Source: Acidobacteriota bacterium
Lineage (GTDB): Bacteria; Acidobacteriota; Terriglobia; Terriglobales; Acidobacteriaceae
Assembly: GCA_021778845.1 (NCBI GenBank)
Contig: JAJYBU010000007.1
Coordinates: 62,001-126,000, forward strand
Reading direction: 5' to 3'
DNA: 64,000 bases
The notes below the pieces were generated by a model, which was not told where the DNA came from, made no database searches, and saw only the letters and a program-made list of their open reading frames with translations. How positions within the stretch are numbered: position 1 is the stretch's first letter; each line of letters opens with the position of its first letter. Positions 39,098 through 46,840 of the stretch are shown one piece after another. The translations under genes and the position numbers were made by a program.

Positions 39098-41395
39098 TCA
39101 GCGGCCTGCCAGTTGCTTGTCGGTCTCATCCACTGCTTCGTGTAAGAGGGCGCCACGAACCGAGGAGCTCTCACTCTCGTAAGAGTTTCCCGTGAGGAGC
39201 CCAAGAATAAACCACGCGAACAGTGCGGCTCCGACAGAGAACAGAATGTCTCCCGGGACGCGCATCCAGCGCAGGGTCTGCATGGTTCCGGATTGCATGA
39301 ACTCTGCCGAGCGTGCATACCAGGTGCCATATTGAACCGATGCCCAGGCCTGTAGCAGCCCCATCGGAAGCATGCTGAGCAGCGCCATGAAGCTCAGTCC
39401 AATGTTCAGACACCAGAAGGACGCCTTCAACGTACCCTGCTTCCACGGGCGGCCGGGAATCAATGCACGCAGGCAAAACAGCGTCAGCCCCAGGCCGAGC
39501 ATCCCATACACGCCAAACAGCGCCGTATGGCCATGCAGTGGAGTGAGGTTCAATCCCTGCACGTAATACAGCGAGATCGGCGGATTGATGAGGAAGCCGA
39601 ACAGACCGGCGCCCACCAGATTCCAGAAAGCGACAGCCACGAAGAAGTAGATGGGCCAACGATAATTCGCGATCCACGGCGACTTCTTTGTAGGTTGCGC
39701 GATCCGAAGGTTATCCCACGCCTCATAGCCAATCAGCGTGAGTGGCACCACTTCAAAGGCGCTGAAGATCGCTCCGAGGCCGATAACAGCAGGCGTTGCC
39801 CCCGCAAAATAAAGATGATGAAACGTGCCAATGATTCCGCCCGACAGGAAGATCGATGTTGAAAAAAGTGCAGCCTTCGTCGCCGTGCGGATCTCGATCA
39901 ACCGCAGTCGCGTGAACAGGAATCCAATCACGACAGTGGCAAACACCTCGAAGAATCCTTCAACCCAGAGATGCACCACCCACCAGCGCCAGTATTCCGC
40001 AGTGACGAGATTGCTGCGCTGGCCATACATCAGGCCCGCCGCATAGAAGAGAGGAATAGCAACACTGGAGATCAGGAACAGGATCAGCAGCGACCGGTCT
40101 TCGCTCTTGCGAACGAGCGCCGGCTTCAACGCGGCCACCATCAACACCAGCCACAGCACAAGGCCGACGAATAACAGAATCTGCCAGAACCTTCCCAGGT
40201 CGACATACTCATATCCCTGGCTGCCGAACCAGAACCACATATTGCCGAGGCGTTGCTGGATGCCCAGCCATTCACCGGCGAGTGAGCCTCCAACCACCAC
40301 GATCAGCGCGCCGAACAACACATTCACGCCGAGCCGCTGATACTTCGGTTCATGACCACTGACCGCCGGCCCGACATACAGACCCGTCGCCAGCCACGAC
40401 GTCGCAATCCAGAAAATCGCAAGTTGCAGATGCCATGTCCGCGTCACCGCATAAGGCAAGTAGCGATCCAGCGGGAACCCATAGAAGCTGTGCCCCTCTA
40501 CCCCATAGTGCGCAGTCAACATACCCATCAAAATCTGAACGCCCCACAGGATGAGCACCACAACGAAATATTTAAACGTTGCACGCTGGGACGGCGTCGC
40601 ACGATGCTCAAGAAACGGGTCCGTCGCCGGATATGGCCCATGCGCAACGGCCTTTTCCTGTGAGGCATACCACCACACCAGTCCTCCAACGCCAGCAAGC
40701 AGCCCGACGAAGCTCAGAACGCTCCACAGCAACGCGCCCGGCGTCGGTTCATTGGCGATGAGAGGCTCATGCGGCCAATTGTTGGTGTACGTCGTGTCCG
40801 AATCAGGACGGTTCGTTCCGGCCGCCCATGCCGTCCACCAGAAGAAGGCGCCGAGCTCGCGCTGCTTCTCAACATTCGTGAGCGCACCGTGCGGAATGGC
40901 ATAATCCGCACGACCGCGCGCAAACACGTCCGCGTAGTAAGCCGAGAGCTGCTGGAACGCCACCGCACGATCGGCGTCGATCACGATCCGCCGCTGCGCC
41001 GGGTCATAGGTGTTGGTTCGTATCTCACGAATCAGGCGAGCTTTGAGGACGGCCTGCTGATCCACGCCGAGCGCCGCGAAGCTCGATGCCCCGTCCCTGA
41101 CCGCCCACAGGTTCAGCAGTATCTCCGACTCGCGATGCAGCCAATCGGCCGTCCAGTCCGGCGCGACGTACGCTCCATGGCCCCAGACCGTTCCGATCTC
41201 CTGTCCGCCGATGGACTGCCACACACCCTGCCCATCCGTAATCGTGCTGCCCGTGAAGAGAAGATGTCCGTCCGTGGTGTAGACATCAGGAATCGGCGGG
41301 GCCTGGCTGATCATCTTCCGGCCCTCCCCTCCGAGTACAGCAAACGATGCAACAACGACAATGATTAATGCGATCCAATACCGCTTGTAGGACAT
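39098..41395 (-). CDS. norB: Quinol-dependent nitric oxide reductase (qNor)
   Basis: I choose the ATG at 41395 (MSYKRYWIALIIVV), with AAGGAG six bases before it, over an earlier frame extension. The product has 765 residues, the qNor length. It has an N-terminal membrane helix, a periplasmic cytochrome-c-like domain without a CxxCH heme site ('GQGVWQSIGGQEIGTVWGHGAYVAPDWTADWLHRE'), and a 12-helix heme-copper-oxidase-like core. The core shows 'TWHLQLAIFWIATSWLATGLYVGP', 'WWVVHLWVEGFFEVFATVVIGFL' and 'HHLYFAGATPAVIGLGAIFSAFEVVPL'. It reduces two NO to N2O with quinol electrons, for detoxification or respiration. An FNR-like box lies upstream. Confidence 0.95.
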   Translation of the reverse strand: MSYKRYWIALIIVVVASFAVLGGEGRKMISQAPPIPDVYTTDGHLLFTGSTITDGQGVWQSIGGQEIGTVWGHGAYVAPDWTADWLHRESEILLNLWAVRDGASSFAALGVDQQAVLKARLIREIRTNTYDPAQRRIVIDADRAVAFQQLSAYYADVFARGRADYAIPHGALTNVEKQRELGAFFWWTAWAAGTNRPDSDTTYTNNWPHEPLIANEPTPGALLWSVLSFVGLLAGVGGLVWWYASQEKAVAHGPYPATDPFLEHRATPSQRATFKYFVVVLILWGVQILMGMLTAHYGVEGHSFYGFPLDRYLPYAVTRTWHLQLAIFWIATSWLATGLYVGPAVSGHEPKYQRLGVNVLFGALIVVVGGSLAGEWLGIQQRLGNMWFWFGSQGYEYVDLGRFWQILLFVGLVLWLVLMVAALKPALVRKSEDRSLLILFLISSVAIPLFYAAGLMYGQRSNLVTAEYWRWWVVHLWVEGFFEVFATVVIGFLFTRLRLIEIRTATKAALFSTSIFLSGGIIGTFHHLYFAGATPAVIGLGAIFSAFEVVPLTLIGYEAWDNLRIAQPTKKSPWIANYRWPIYFFVAVAFWNLVGAGLFGFLINPPISLYYVQGLNLTPLHGHTALFGVYGMLGLGLTLFCLRALIPGRPWKQGTLKASFWCLNIGLSFMALLSMLPMGLLQAWASVQYGTWYARSAEFMQSGTMQTLRWMRVPGDILFSVGAALFAWFILGLLTGNSYESESSSVRGALLHEAVDETDKQLAGR

Positions 41396-41470
41396 AATCT
41401 CTCCTTGATTGAGAACGCGGAAGTTTTCCCGCGCTGGAATCACCGTAGGATCTTCCTCCACGCAATGCAG

Positions 41471-41482: not shown

Positions 41483-41655
41483 CTCGACGCCAACCTTATC
41501 CAAAATCTTCGGTCGGCACGATGCAGGGCGATCACCGGCTGCTGCCCTGTCGAGCAAAGTCCCTCTCTTCGCCTGCGCGCATGTAAGCAATTCGCGCTGC
41601 GAAACCTGGCTCGCTCGTGGTATGAAAGTACATGCATCTGCTCGCTCTCAGTGGG

Positions 41656-41667
41656 TGACTTAAGTCA
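41656..41667. promoter_or_regulatory. Perfect FNR/NNR-like palindrome facing the octaheme cytochrome gene
   Basis: TGACTTAAGTCA is a perfect 12-base palindrome, bracketed by CTCAG (41647-41651) and CTGAG (41668-41672 region). Its centre is about 40 bases before the start expected from the -10-like GATACT (41689-41694). The sequence resembles sites of NO- or oxygen-responsive CRP/FNR-family regulators. Confidence 0.6.
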
Positions 41668-41731
41668 CTGAGGCGAGCGTATAGTTCAGATACTGTCGAA
41701 CAGTTCATTGAATCGGTGAGGGTCAATCGGC

Positions 41732-42967
41732 ATGTCGTTTCGATCGGTGTTTATGGCAGTCGTCATCGCGTTTGCGCTCATTCTGTCCGCCTTTCTCGTC
41801 AATCGCGCGCGGCCCAAAATCGAAACCGAGCAGCCCTCCGCCGACTTTGTCCGGGCCTCGGGCAAGTGCGCGGAGTGTCATGCGCGAGCGCAGTATTCGG
41901 TGGTGCATGAGTACGAGATGTCCATGCATGCGAAGAAGGGCATCACCTGCCTGGACTGCCATCAGCCGGCAGCCAATCAGAAGAGCGTGGATCACCACGG
42001 GTTTGTGATCAGCGCACACCTTACCGCGGGCAACTGCCGCTCGTGTCACGAAGGAATTTATCAGGAGTTTGCGCGCAGCCGCCACGCCGCGCCTGCATGG
42101 GCCGCAGTCTACGGCTCGCAAGGCTTAACCAAGGAGCAAGTCGCGTTCAGCGAGCAGTTCCAGCCAGGTGGCACGAACCGCGCGCCCAATCCGCTCGTCC
42201 TGCCTGAAGGCCACGCCGCCACAACGTCCGGCTGCGACCAGTGCCACTCAATCGGCAAGCCGAACGATGACGGCACCATCGGCACCTGCACCAACTGCCA
42301 CGCCCGCCATGTCGATTCCGTCGCACTGGCACGGCTCCCGACCACTTGCGGCCAGTGCCACATGGGCCCCGATCATTCGCAGATTGAGATCTACAACGAG
42401 TCCAAACACGGCGTAATGTTTGCCGCTCAGCACGATCAGATGAACCTGAACGCGGACCCGCGCACGCTCACCACGCGCGACATGTTTGTGCCCACCTGCG
42501 CCACCTGCCACATGAGCGGCATCAACGGCCTCAAGGTCACGCACAACCCCTCGGACCGCCTCAGTTGGTATCTCTCCGATGCCGTAAGCACCCATCGCCC
42601 CAACTATCTCCAGGCGCAGATCAACATGAAGCAGGTCTGCACGCAGTGCCACACGCAGCCCATGATCGACCGTGTCTACACCCAGGCCGAACAGGTCGTT
42701 GCCAACACCAATGGCAGGGTGCTCGCAGCCAAGGCCATCATGGACGGCCTGCACAAGGATGGCGTCCTCACCGGCGCTCCTTTCACGCATCCCATCGACT
42801 TCACCTACTTCAACCTCTGGCACTATGACGGTCGCACCAGCAAGCACGCCGCGTTCATGGGTGGCGCTGACTTCGTGCAGTGGCACGGAAACTACGAACT
42901 GCTCGCGAAGACCATTGAACTCCAGCACGAGGCCGACGAACTGCGGAGGGAGCATGCCCACAAGTAG
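41732..42967 (+). CDS. Octaheme c-type cytochrome, hydroxylamine-oxidoreductase-like
   Basis: The 411-residue protein begins with an uncleaved-looking membrane anchor (residues 5-24). It has exactly eight CxxCH heme sites at about residues 46, 73, 102, 168, 186, 206, 256 and 303. Spacing and motifs such as 'IEIYNESKHGVMF' and the C-terminal 'KHAAFMGGADFVQWHGNYEL' match the HAO family, whose members oxidise hydroxylamine or, in the reductive branch, reduce nitrite or hydroxylamine. I cannot confirm the tyrosine that cross-links the P460 heme in oxidative HAO; Phe381 lies in the candidate segment, which points towards a reductase. It is translationally coupled to the next gene and divergent from norB. 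Confidence 0.88.
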   Translation: MSFRSVFMAVVIAFALILSAFLVNRARPKIETEQPSADFVRASGKCAECHARAQYSVVHEYEMSMHAKKGITCLDCHQPAANQKSVDHHGFVISAHLTAGNCRSCHEGIYQEFARSRHAAPAWAAVYGSQGLTKEQVAFSEQFQPGGTNRAPNPLVLPEGHAATTSGCDQCHSIGKPNDDGTIGTCTNCHARHVDSVALARLPTTCGQCHMGPDHSQIEIYNESKHGVMFAAQHDQMNLNADPRTLTTRDMFVPTCATCHMSGINGLKVTHNPSDRLSWYLSDAVSTHRPNYLQAQINMKQVCTQCHTQPMIDRVYTQAEQVVANTNGRVLAAKAIMDGLHKDGVLTGAPFTHPIDFTYFNLWHYDGRTSKHAAFMGGADFVQWHGNYELLAKTIELQHEADELRREHAHK

Positions 42968-43916
42968 CCTGCTCCCTCGCCTGCAGAAGATCATCACCGG
43001 CCCGCGTCTTCGCTGGGCGCATGATCCGCAGCTTTGGCTGGAGCTATTTATAGCGGCCAACCTGGCGATCCTTGCCGCAGACATCTACATTGCCCACTCG
43101 GTCAATCACTTTCGCAACCCCGCGGAGTACATCCCGTTGTACTTCTCCATCGGCGCTGGACTCGTGATGGCCTGCATCATTGCGCTGCGCTGGCTCTGGG
43201 GCTTTGACGCTCCGTGGCGCGATGTAGGCTTTCTCATCGGATGGATCGCCGTCCTCGTCGGCCTTGGCGGCGTGCTCTACCACCTGGAGAGCCGCTTCTT
43301 CCTCGATCGCACGCTCAAGAGCCTCACCTACGCTGCACCGTTTGCAGCGCCCCTGGCCTATGCTGGCCTCGGTTTCCTCCTGCTCGTCAATCGCATGGTC
43401 GCGCCGCGCACAGTGGATTGGGCGCGATGGGTGCTCTTTCTGGCCATGGGCGGTTTCTTCGGAAACTTTGTCCTGTCCCTCACCGATCACGCGTCGAACG
43501 GTTTTTTCCTGCGAACGGAGTGGATCCCTGTCATCTCTTCGGCGTTCGCAACGGGCTTTCTGATCGTCCCGCTGGTCGTCGCCGTCACACGGCGATTTCT
43601 TGATCTCTGCCTCGCCATCATGTTCGCGCAGGCCTTTGTGGGCGTGCTCGGATTCTGGTTCCATCTACAGGCAAACCTGGTCGAGCCCGGCCACACTCTC
43701 TTTGAGAAGCTCGTCAACGGGGCTCCGCCCATGGCTCCACTTCTCTTTCCCAACCTCGTTGGCCTTGCGCTGATTGGGCTCTGGGCTCTCACGCCTCATA
43801 TTCCGGAAGCAGAGTCGAGTCGCTCCTGGCTCGGCAGTACATATGACTGGAGTCATCCCGAAGGGGAGAGACTTTCTGCCAGCCAGACAAGGTTCCCAGA
43901 CTCGACGGCCGAATAA
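42954..43916 (+). CDS. Polytopic membrane protein coupled to the octaheme cytochrome
   Basis: The start at 42954 (MPTSSLLPRLQK) has GGAGGGAGC directly before it and overlaps the cytochrome stop by 14 bases, giving 320 residues. About eight or nine hydrophobic segments are present. Several carry His near the membrane face ('IYIAHSVNHFRNPAEY', 'GVLYHLESRFF', 'LSLTDHASNGFF', 'GFWFHLQANL'), which could ligate heme b. There is no CxxCH, so it is not a NapC/NrfH-type quinol dehydrogenase. I infer a membrane electron-transfer or anchoring partner of the octaheme cytochrome. I recognise no named family. Confidence 0.75.
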   Translation: MPTSSLLPRLQKIITGPRLRWAHDPQLWLELFIAANLAILAADIYIAHSVNHFRNPAEYIPLYFSIGAGLVMACIIALRWLWGFDAPWRDVGFLIGWIAVLVGLGGVLYHLESRFFLDRTLKSLTYAAPFAAPLAYAGLGFLLLVNRMVAPRTVDWARWVLFLAMGGFFGNFVLSLTDHASNGFFLRTEWIPVISSAFATGFLIVPLVVAVTRRFLDLCLAIMFAQAFVGVLGFWFHLQANLVEPGHTLFEKLVNGAPPMAPLLFPNLVGLALIGLWALTPHIPEAESSRSWLGSTYDWSHPEGERLSASQTRFPDSTAE

Positions 43917-43933: not shown

Positions 43934-45307
43934 TTAGTTCGATTGCCTCACAGCCTGTGGTGCCTGCCCACAACATCGCTTGTACTTCACCCCGCTGCCA
44001 CAAGGACACATCTCGTTGCGTCCCACCCGACGCGTGGGCGATACCGTCTTCATACCGCGCATCCACGCCATAACATTTGCAGGACTCCGTTGATGCGCCA
44101 GTTCCCGCGCCATAAAGCGCATCGGTGCGTCAATGTGTTTAAAGAAAAGTTTGTACGCTGGACACAAATAATTCAAACCCGCTTCACCATCTGGGGTCAT
44201 AGTGAACCGATGTTTGGGACACTCACCGTTACAGGCGAATCGCACCTCGCACTGACGGCAGTATTGTGGCAACTCCGTCTGCTTGCTCTGGCCAAACTCA
44301 TGCTGCTGGAGAGAGGTAGTCATCGCGGCCAGCCCCTTCTCCATCACGTTGCCCAGCCGGTTTTCCTCATATACAAAGTGATCGCATGAATACACATCAC
44401 CGTTATGCTCCACAGCCATGGCAGACCCACACGTGGGACGGAAGATGCACAAACTCGCAGGCACGCCCACCCAGCTTTCCAGCGCCACATCGAATAACTG
44501 CACAAACACGCGACCCACATCGCGCACCACCCACTGATCAAAGATATCGCACAGAAATCGCCCATAAAGCACAGGGTCCACAGACCATGGTGTAACCGCA
44601 GCCACATCTTTAAATGACGGGGCGATCAGCACCAGGCCATCCTTGGCAACTTGCTCTGCCGCGCGCTCAACAATCGGAATGAACTGCATAAAGCCGCTGC
44701 CGATTCGCCGCAAAAACTCATACACCATGAGCGGATACTCAACGTTGCCAGCATGAACCGTTGTGAGCGTATTGAACTCCACCTCATGCCGCTTCAAGAG
44801 GTCGATTCCACGCATCACTTTATCGAACGTCGGCTGATTCCCCTTATCCACCCGATAGATATCGTGAAGCTCCCGCGGCCCATCAATCGAAATACCTACC
44901 AGAAACTTCTGCTCACGAAGGAAGGCACCCCACTCATCATTCAGCAGCGTCCCATTGGTCTGGATGGCGTTCTCGATCCGTTTACTGCCAGCGTACTTGG
45001 CCTGCAACTCCACAACACGCCGAAAGAACTCCACCCCTAGAAGCGTCGGTTCGCCGCCCTGCCATGCGAAGTGGATAACATCCGTCTTCTGATGCTCAAT
45101 GTATTGCCGGACATACTCCTCAAGCACGTCGTCAGGCATCGCCCACTTCGACGTCCTGGGGTAGAGCACTTCCTTTTCAAGGTAAAAACAATAGGTGCAA
45201 TCCAGGTTGCACATGGGACCAATCGGCTTGGCAAGGATATGAAACGGCGCAACAGCCTTATCTCCTCCAACTCCAGCCGTATCCTCTGCCTTTGGTTCAA
45301 TGCCCAC
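43934..45307 (-). CDS. Anaerobic sulfatase-maturase-like radical SAM/SPASM enzyme with SEC-C tail
   Basis: The 457-residue product uses a GTG start at 45307 (MGIEPKAEDTAG). Radical SAM cluster 'CNLDCTYC' lies near residue 34, followed by 'FAWQGGEPTLLG' and 'AIQTNGTLLNDEW'. The SPASM region has 'CIFRPTCGSAMAVEHNGDVYSCDHFVY' and 'YCRQCEVRFACNGECPKHRF'. The C-terminus ends with a SEC-C zinc motif 'RNEMCPCGSGVKYKRCCG'. Family members oxidise an active-site Cys or Ser of sulfatases to formylglycine. No sulfatase gene is in the window, so the substrate is elsewhere or different. It converges on the membrane protein gene, 17 bases away. Confidence 0.88.
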   Translation of the reverse strand: MGIEPKAEDTAGVGGDKAVAPFHILAKPIGPMCNLDCTYCFYLEKEVLYPRTSKWAMPDDVLEEYVRQYIEHQKTDVIHFAWQGGEPTLLGVEFFRRVVELQAKYAGSKRIENAIQTNGTLLNDEWGAFLREQKFLVGISIDGPRELHDIYRVDKGNQPTFDKVMRGIDLLKRHEVEFNTLTTVHAGNVEYPLMVYEFLRRIGSGFMQFIPIVERAAEQVAKDGLVLIAPSFKDVAAVTPWSVDPVLYGRFLCDIFDQWVVRDVGRVFVQLFDVALESWVGVPASLCIFRPTCGSAMAVEHNGDVYSCDHFVYEENRLGNVMEKGLAAMTTSLQQHEFGQSKQTELPQYCRQCEVRFACNGECPKHRFTMTPDGEAGLNYLCPAYKLFFKHIDAPMRFMARELAHQRSPANVMAWMRGMKTVSPTRRVGRNEMCPCGSGVKYKRCCGQAPQAVRQSN

Positions 45308-45610: not shown

Positions 45611-46840
45611 TCAATGCACAAGGAATCGCAGCTTGCGATTCCAGAACATCACGACTCCAGTGACCGCCAGCAGTGCAGGCACCATGCCCAGTACGACCCA
45701 CAGGATTTTTACCGCAACTCCCAACCTGCCGGTGCCGCCGAAGAGTCCGAAGTGGAGCGCGACCGAGTATTGCTCCAGGCGCGAACCGAGATCCTGATCC
45801 TGAGTATCGCTGCTGGCGAGCAGCGCACCCGTATGCCCATCGAGCAGGATGCGCACCAGATGCGAGTACGGAGCGGCGCCCCGGTAGTAGCCCGTAACGC
45901 GAAAAGTCAAGCCGTCGCGCGATGGCAGTTGAAGATAGCCCGGAGGCGCGTCAGGTGGAAGCGCCTTGTAGGCAGCGGCGATAGCCTGATCGAGCGTGAG
46001 AACCTCTGTACCCGACGGCTGTGGCTTGCGTGCAATCGCGTCGAGCGACACGCCCGTATCGCGATACCCATGACCGCTGACGAATTCGATGACTCTCCCC
46101 AAAGGTCTTGGAAAAGCAAAGTCGAGGCCTGTAATGATGACGAGGATGAACGCAGCACTCGTCCAGAACCCGATGACAGTATGAAGATCGAAGTTCATCC
46201 GCCTCCAGCTGGATCTGCGATGAAAGACCAGCGCCGACACCCAGCGCTGCACTCCTGGCCACCAGAGTACAAGACCCGATAGACAAAGAAGTAGAAGCCC
46301 CAATGCCATCCAGCCACTGATCAGCAGGCCAGTCTCCCCCGAGAGCAGATAAACATGCAGATTACTTAGCAAACCAAGCAACCCTGCGTAACGCAACCGA
46401 TCGAGCAGAACCTCGCCCGTATACGGATTGAAGGAGACGACGCGATAGTTCGGCGTTGCACCGCCGGTGGCCGGACGCATCAACAACTCCGTAGCTTGGG
46501 TGTGCTTGTCGAAATTGCGGAGCGCAAAAGCAATCCACCCGGGGTGGCTGTTCTCAATGCGAAGAACGGTTGCGTCCATGGTGGTCTGCCGGGCAACGGG
46601 GACCACTTGATACAGTGTGGGCTCCAGCTTGCGAAGGAGCTCATCTTTGAAGACGAGCGCGCTACCAGTCAGGCCGATGACGATGGCGTACATCACCAGA
46701 ATGCAGCCTGACCAAAGATGGATCTGAAAAAGTGCACGTCGCAAAAGCACTTGCTGCGGCGACCGCATCCAGGTTGAGCGGCGACGCATATCTGTGCTCA
46801 CTGGCGTGTGTATTGGAGTGCTGCTCACTGCTCGCTCCAT
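45611..46840 (-). CDS. PepSY-associated membrane protein
   Basis: The 409-residue protein matches the PepSY-TM family. The first membrane segment is 'RALFQIHLWSGCILVMYAIVIGLTGSALVFKDEL', followed by a periplasmic PepSY-like region, then 'LLSNLHVYLLSGETGLLISGWMALGLLLLCLSGLVLWWPG', 'NFDLHTVIGFWTSAAFILVIITGL', a second PepSY-like region, and a last helix. Conserved His in HLW, NLHVYL and DLHTVIGFW could bind heme. Members are tied to siderophore-iron reduction or uptake and typically lie near TonB receptors, as here. It is the last gene of the 50978-45611 run, nine bases after the fusion amidohydrolase. Confidence 0.85.
   Translation of the reverse strand: MERAVSSTPIHTPVSTDMRRRSTWMRSPQQVLLRRALFQIHLWSGCILVMYAIVIGLTGSALVFKDELLRKLEPTLYQVVPVARQTTMDATVLRIENSHPGWIAFALRNFDKHTQATELLMRPATGGATPNYRVVSFNPYTGEVLLDRLRYAGLLGLLSNLHVYLLSGETGLLISGWMALGLLLLCLSGLVLWWPGVQRWVSALVFHRRSSWRRMNFDLHTVIGFWTSAAFILVIITGLDFAFPRPLGRVIEFVSGHGYRDTGVSLDAIARKPQPSGTEVLTLDQAIAAAYKALPPDAPPGYLQLPSRDGLTFRVTGYYRGAAPYSHLVRILLDGHTGALLASSDTQDQDLGSRLEQYSVALHFGLFGGTGRLGVAVKILWVVLGMVPALLAVTGVVMFWNRKLRFLVH

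Follow-up and report, generated by a model that had tools for sequence, protein, structure and literature searches.

Nitrosomonas HAO (1fgj, 4fas) is a protein of 546 residues for which we know of no eight-helix membrane partner, and none is known to us for the octaheme of Ignicoccus hospitalis (4qo5). The Ignicoccus protein is called membrane-associated in the title of Parey 2016, as cited in an excerpt of PMC8840924. Quinol-linked multiheme reductases of nitrogen oxides are described with NapC/NrfH-type heme-c partners in the excerpted text of PMC3701875, which also proposes a reverse hydroxylamine:ubiquinone redox module (HURM) for Nautilia: HaoA and NapC/cM552 pass quinol electrons on to nitrite reduction, Hcp included, and this HaoA lacks the critical Tyr. 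The locus analysed here lies in a 64,000-nucleotide stretch (hereafter the window) of contig JAJYBU010000007.1 from a soil bacterium of the Acidobacteriota and consists of two overlapping genes, one for an octaheme cytochrome c (OCC) of the HAO family and one for an eight-helix membrane protein of an undescribed family. Unlike the Nautilia system, whose partner is a NapC-family tetraheme c protein, the window pairs its octaheme with an eight-helix protein devoid of CxxCH motifs. No description of such a pair was found in the portions of the open-licence literature searched.

The OCC gene occupies positions 41732–42967 on the forward strand and encodes 411 residues. Eight CxxCH motifs extend from C46 to H307 (41867–42652, +) and are not a product of chance, since 2000 residue shuffles reach two motifs at most (none in 1930, one in 69, two in 1); exactly eight are present in all 30 rows of the paired-OCC alignment A3. 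The protein matches PF13447 with an E-value of 3.9e-25 in a family profile search, and a sequence search of the PDB returns 4qo5 (1.6e-29) and HAO 1fgj (3.3e-20). A wider profile, A4, composed of 26 of the 39 unpaired or divergent OCCs and four paired rows, matches 4qo5 over residues 10–507, C-terminus included, with 329 bits, and HAO with 150 bits; the A3 profile scores 146 bits against 4qo5. The best solved relative is the Ignicoccus octaheme, which shares the Met of the C-terminal motif but comprises about 520 residues and carries Asp-Val where the OCC has Asp-His. All eight heme sites align with those of Nitrosomonas HAO, and the fourth site of the OCC thus corresponds to the HAO catalytic heme, which we take to be P460. 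The Asp-His pair aligns as well: D214-H215 (42371–42376, +) is placed by HMMER on the Asp-His of HAO, presumably its catalytic pair D267/H268. D214 is kept in 30/30 rows of both A3 and A4, and H215 in 30/30 and 29/30, respectively. The eight aligned CxxCH sites, the profile match and the active-site Asp-His together place the protein among the HAO-family octahemes. In octaheme nitrite reductase (ONR) one active-site heme is bound by CxxCK; the OCC contains no such site, all eight being CxxCH.

At the N-terminus of the OCC, a membrane anchor is predicted as a helix at residues 3–26 (41738–41809, +), which would remain uncleaved. The AlphaFold2 model was used for this helix alone, its overall quality being poor (mean pLDDT 61.8, pTM 0.47). 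F3, F7 and R27 are each found in 30/30 paired OCCs, and in 7, 7 and 4 of 30 rows, respectively, of A4. This special constraint on the anchor residues of paired OCCs suits a contact with the membrane partner. An earlier interpretation made from the DNA alone, here termed the sequence-only reading, had described a 411-residue protein with eight CxxCH motifs, an N-terminal anchor and HAO-family kinship at the C-terminus. Its coordinates are exact, the PF13447 match and the shuffles bear out the octaheme, the anchor is recovered as a helix in the poor model, and the C-terminal kinship is borne out by the A4 match to 4qo5, which takes in the C-terminus.

The second gene (42954–43916, +) encodes 320 residues; its first 14 bases (42954–42967, +) are shared with the OCC gene, an overlap that the sequence-only reading had stated. 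CxxCH is absent from all 34 rows of the membrane-protein alignment A2, from which two loci with long or uncertain ends, L040 and L044, were omitted; in L040:9031-10551 the frame extends to 506 residues. AlphaFold2 yields a confident eight-helix model (pLDDT 91.1, pTM 0.88). Neither Pfam nor NCBIfam profiles match the protein over cut-off, no convincing sequence match occurs in the PDB, and Foldseek of the model against the PDB leaves 0 of 178 matches at E 0.001. The tandem four-helix bundles 3dby and 3d19 were considered as fold relatives and set aside, their Foldseek E-values of 1.1 and above being too weak to use. The NapC family and bc-type cytochrome b (PF00033) do not match either, and PF00033 is absent from the 22 families matched by any of the 34 members. 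A known family unrelated to electron transfer, the outcome named by the sequence-only reading as fatal to its proposal, was reached in none of Pfam, NCBIfam and the PDB.

The two halves of the membrane protein, residues 25–150 (43026–43403, +) and 151–285 (43404–43808, +), are homologous in a half-against-half hhalign comparison (probability 96.2, E 2.3e-9), with controls at or below 5.6 (20 column-shuffled) and at 0.14 (reversed). Judged by its sequence, the protein is a tandem duplication of a four-helix unit. The membrane-placed histidines noted by the sequence-only reading resolve into four, His48 (43095–43097, +) and His110 (43281–43283, +) in the first repeat and His179 (43488–43490, +) and His237 (43662–43664, +) in the second, all invariant in 34/34 rows of A2. 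In the model they sit close to the helix ends, on helices 1, 3, 5 and 7. Mean counts of Lys plus Arg are 3.0 at the N-terminus, 3.0, 2.3 and 1.9 in loops 2-3, 4-5 and 6-7, and 2.2 at the C-terminus, as opposed to 1.5, 1.7, 0.7 and 1.2 in loops 1-2, 3-4, 5-6 and 7-8. By the positive-inside rule, this distribution assigns the two termini to the inside and the four His to the outside, where the periplasmic OCC lies. Four membrane His in two pairs, H48/H110 and H179/H237, one pair in each homologous half, are a feature of diheme b-type quinone-reactive membrane cytochromes, and two b hemes together with a quinone are predicted for the protein.

A profile scan with the membrane-protein alignment over a bacterial and archaeal collection, one genome per species, returned 35 loci. 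The OCC gene, or the part of it present on the contig, lies directly upstream of the membrane-protein gene in 35/35 of these, and a full frame with eight CxxCH on the same strand in 29/35. The OCC is cut by the contig end in L018, L030 and L036, and in L032 only its last residues are present, recognised by eye and missed by tblastn at 1e-5. In L027 (near 8137; isolate record AB60) and L041 (a metagenome record, also cut by the contig end) the OCC frame changes, through sequencing error or decay. The records are mostly labelled Acidobacteria or subgroups of it, with two Poribacteria and one Planctomycetota, and nearly all are metagenome assemblies. The exact 14-base overlap is found in 13/31 other loci and an overlap of any length in 21/31, with start codons chosen by script.

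In a sample of the phylum, 396 genomes were searched with the membrane-protein and OCC profiles. At E 0.001 the membrane profile matches 24 of them: 14 at 1e-28 or better, one fragment of 84 residues (G183), and nine distant relatives. The same 14/396 genomes hold an OCC scoring over 430 bits, with the pair adjacent in 14/14; a further 88 of the 396 contain an OCC-like match at 1e-20 that does not attain 430 bits. Both scans scored few candidates per genome, so their absences are soft. The sequence-only reading had staked the coupling of the two genes on conservation in other genomes, and the pair is conserved in both surveys. In an OCC tree (n=66), the 32 paired OCCs all group on the same side of a branch supported at 100/96. 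The tree omits the incomplete L030 and L041 from the 31 paired loci and, from the 39 unpaired or divergent OCCs, L128 (a masked stretch) and L134 and L135 (11–12 CxxCH). A very divergent pair, still adjacent, occurs in one genus (L109:7857-10077 and L139:5428-7768), with an OCC at about 432 bits and a membrane protein at E 1e-28 to 1e-30. In L029, two opposite-strand frames with 23 and 25 CxxCH lie 1.6–6 kb upstream of the membrane protein.

We consider, with a probability of roughly 0.55, that the OCC and the eight-helix protein form one membrane complex, a quinol-linked reductase of nitrite, nitric oxide (NO) or hydroxylamine in which a new quinone module, probably of the diheme-b type, stands in for NapC. 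In this proposed complex, the OCC would be held in the periplasm by its uncleaved N-terminal helix, with catalysis at the open heme 4 and electrons relayed by the seven remaining hemes. The eight-helix protein would bind two b hemes, one per four-helix unit, near the periplasmic face. Quinol would be oxidised at the eight-helix protein near the outer face, and the electrons would travel via the two b hemes to the anchored OCC and along its heme chain to heme 4, where nitrite, NO or hydroxylamine would be reduced, in respiration or in detoxification of nitrogen oxides. If quinol is oxidised at the outer face, this step is probably electroneutral, as for NapC/NrfH. The job proposed is that of the NapC/NrfH quinol dehydrogenases, as in NrfHA, namely the transfer of electrons from quinol to a periplasmic multiheme reductase; the eight-helix protein differs from them in being unrelated by sequence and in lacking heme c. 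The heme b, the quinol, the direction of electron flow and the substrate are all predicted steps of this scheme.

The membrane protein belongs to a wider family. In an hhalign comparison with the paired family, seven distant relatives reach a probability of 96.0 (E 3.8e-9), against 0.24 for a reversed control, and they keep the duplicated pattern and all four His. An alignment of 20 divergent members shows identity in 20/20 at the four His and at Gly106, Gly233 and Pro129/133/258/262, which gives each four-helix unit the signature His, Gly-x3-His, Pro-x3-Pro. At position 58 these members have Glu (11), Met (7) or Ala (2), and at position 189 Glu (13) or Gln (7). Fixed His beside variable Glu58 and Glu189 suit a bis-His heme better than a His-carboxylate metal site. 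It is extremely unlikely that the eight-helix protein is a metalloenzyme or hydrolase working beside the OCC, with a His and carboxylate site or of the CREST type, such as ceramidase or HlyIII. The paired form does have invariant His, Glu and Asp residues, which would fit such an enzyme, and profile searches give weak Ceramidase matches in 8/34 members (best E 0.0083) and an HlyIII match at E 0.0072. These are below cut-off and do not establish membership of CREST, whose fold has seven helices, no CREST protein is among the 50 Foldseek matches listed, and the replacement of Glu58 by Met or Ala and of Glu189 by Gln occurs in relatives that keep all four His.

In one subgroup of the wider family, the membrane-protein relatives precede genes for gluconate-2-dehydrogenase subunit 3 and a GMC dehydrogenase in 7/8 loci (L114 checked with Pfam). 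The eighth, L067, has a short frame of 219 residues and neither a GMC nor a subunit 3 gene in its stretch; it was left out of the GMC-type alignment together with the fragment L072. All four His are kept in the GMC-type loci L012, L065, L066, L068–L071, L114:7850-8884 and L115:8573-9565. Gluconate 2-dehydrogenase complexes usually reach the quinone through a triheme cytochrome c, their third subunit; in the loci described here the four-His protein precedes the genes instead of a heme-c subunit. Found beside an octaheme enzyme and beside GMC-type dehydrogenases, the membrane protein is best read as a shared quinone link. A broader proposal, possible though short of even odds, sees in the eight-helix protein the founder of a new diheme-b family of quinone oxidoreductases, with a duplicated four-helix unit and both hemes near the periplasmic face. 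Bacteria would combine this module with periplasmic enzymes unrelated to one another, namely octaheme N-oxide reductases and, with electrons flowing the opposite way, GMC dehydrogenases, and it would substitute for quinone linkers of the heme-c kind.

The proposed quinol-linked reductase draws its support from the pairing, the clade of paired OCCs, the fixed anchor residues, the four outward His, the GMC-linked relatives, and two features described below, namely the cytochrome b beside some unpaired OCCs and the N-oxide genes near the pair in close relatives; the module proposed for Nautilia adds a precedent. Several points weigh against it. No known heme-b or quinone motif is matched in the membrane protein, and His so near the helix ends would place the hemes near the surface. 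Electron flow could be reversed, given that the enzymes served by the GMC-linked relatives are oxidative. In L063 and L064 (L137, L138), a third form of the protein shares the four-His pattern, and the stretch covered holds no evident redox partner; frames that by eye resemble RND efflux and CAAX-protease genes lie near this form. Beyond the close relatives, the pair has no recurring N-oxide neighbour, and of the 14 pair genomes 4 have a quinol NO reductase and 2 have Hcp. Finally, a NapC-family match over cut-off is present in 9/14 pair genomes, so a NapC-type donor could also serve.

This last point bears on the view that the eight-helix protein has no redox activity and serves as an anchor, a scaffold or an assembly factor, the OCC receiving its electrons from another donor, NapC-type or soluble. 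We regard this view as unlikely. Strict pairing fits an anchor equally well, NapC-family domains are available in most pair genomes, and the cofactor of the eight-helix protein is a predicted one. Set against this, the OCC already has a predicted anchor of its own, and the four His kept in 20/20 divergent members, GMC-linked ones included, would be left unexplained. G270, a genome 96% complete that has the pair, shows no NapC-family match at E 0.001. In G000 the NapC-family match lies in a 498-residue frame and scores 32 bits. The defining trait of HURM, a tetraheme NapC-type partner encoded with the OCC, is missing from the pair (0 CxxCH in 34/34 rows and no NapC match). The suggestion in the sequence-only reading that the membrane protein replaces NapC as the quinol link is indirectly strengthened: the four invariant His in a duplicated unit, the relatives that accompany periplasmic redox enzymes of a second class, and the cytochrome b beside some unpaired OCCs speak for it, while heme, quinone and substrate stay at the level of prediction.

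The direction of electron flow was considered at the site of the cross-linking Tyr. M376 of the OCC (42857–42859, +), near the presumed cross-link site, is invariant in 30/30 rows of A3 and 30/30 of A4. Its column contains the Met of 4qo5 and, in a weak alignment (i-Evalue 10 in that stretch), the His of 6h5l. Alignments to Nitrosomonas HAO from three profile or sequence searches stop at HAO residue 407–411, short of the Tyr site, and a search with the C-terminal piece of 6h5l matched 6h5l alone. According to the excerpted text of PMC12758564, oxidative members of the HAO family carry Tyr at the key site and reductive ones His. The Met376 column favours reduction, within the limits set by the weak 6h5l alignment and by a Nitrosomonas HAO that is unalignable there. 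Oxidation of hydroxylamine or another nitrogen compound by the OCC, with the membrane module reducing quinone, appears decidedly unlikely. It would accord with the dehydrogenase class served by the relatives beside GMC and subunit 3, and with D214-H215, which matches the Asp-His of HAO where 4qo5 has Asp-Val. It is disfavoured by Met rather than Tyr at the column of the 6h5l His and by the absence, by eye, of ammonia-oxidation genes from the listed ORFs around the pair, for which no family search was made.

Fifteen loci with unpaired OCCs were inspected, and some of their neighbourhoods could be resolved. A bc-type cytochrome b (PF00033, by Pfam) adjoins the unpaired OCC in L091, L094 and L104, and L095 looks alike by eye. 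The acidobacterial octahemes of this kind likewise have a multi-helix membrane neighbour, although it shows no sequence match to the eight-helix protein; a membrane b-type cytochrome can therefore occupy the place of the latter. In L097 and L102 the unpaired OCC adjoins a COX1-family gene that resembles the quinol NO reductase of the window, and L099 resembles L097 by eye. A second octaheme in the genome of the window (L107:9404-10792; G000:C52:39577-40632) falls in the unpaired clade and is 37% identical. It lies near NarK-transporter-like and assimilatory-type nitrate-reductase-like genes, both below NCBIfam cut-offs, and may serve as nitrite reductase in a cluster for nitrate assimilation.

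Upstream of the pair in the window, a divergent quinol-type NO reductase gene (39098–41461, −; PF22085 and PF00115) is present where the sequence-only reading had placed one. It is a context gene outside the conserved unit: membership in that unit is ruled out by its occurrence beside the pair in 8/36 loci, window included, and in few of the pair genomes, so that its link to the pair is weaker than the sequence-only reading had suggested. Other neighbours in the 36 loci include a Ric/ScdA-like protein (5), a Crp-type regulator (4), hemerythrin (4), a NapH-like ferredoxin protein (4) and hydroxylamine reductase Hcp (3); the family assignments were verified on L019 and L014. Only in close relatives does the pair have N-oxide neighbours, and in the window itself the NO reductase alone is next door.

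These neighbourhoods also bear on whether the OCC might act, through the same quinone module, on a substrate without nitrogen, for instance sulfite or tetrathionate. Some octahemes do use sulfur compounds, OTR among them (PMC8528874, excerpted text). Multiheme reductases are promiscuous, and the restriction of N-oxide neighbours to close relatives leaves room for such a substrate. We judge this very unlikely, given the kinship to HAO and 4qo5, with no OTR chain among the PDB matches listed, the clustering of N-oxide genes with the OCC in close relatives, and the NO-reductase-like gene adjoining the unpaired OCCs of L097 and L102.

The divergent promoter region contains GTGACTTAAGTCAC, a perfect palindrome at 41655–41668. 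Its reading as a CRP/FNR-type regulatory site is not supported, since it occurs in 1/30 upstream stretches, that of the window itself, against 0.32 expected, and is absent from the 29 others. Adjoining the pair in close relatives (L013–L017, L019, e.g. L019:9913-11259 on the reverse strand, and L062) is a multi-helix protein with an HGHxQ..GW motif that matches neither Pfam nor NCBIfam; G183 has a comparable frame next to its 84-residue membrane-protein remnant. Downstream of the pair, the window encodes a radical SAM protein with SPASM and SEC-C domains (43934–45307, −) and a PepSY-TM protein (45611–46840, −).

In conclusion, the window pair combines an HAO-family octaheme with a new kind of membrane partner and, by function, is likely a variant of the quinol-linked reductive HAO module rather than of the HaoA-NapC type, in which the eight-helix protein probably passes electrons between membrane quinones and the octaheme enzyme. 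A survey of 24 genomes, as given in the excerpted text of PMC5900883, notes acidobacterial strains that have NO reductase genes but no known reductase for nitrate or nitrite. If the proposal is true, a modular partner without heme c would widen the set of proteins connecting quinones to periplasmic enzymes. Soil acidobacteria would then gain a sink for nitrite, NO or hydroxylamine that surveys of the marker genes nirK, nirS or nrfA would miss; copper nitrite reductase is over cut-off in 0/14 pair genomes.

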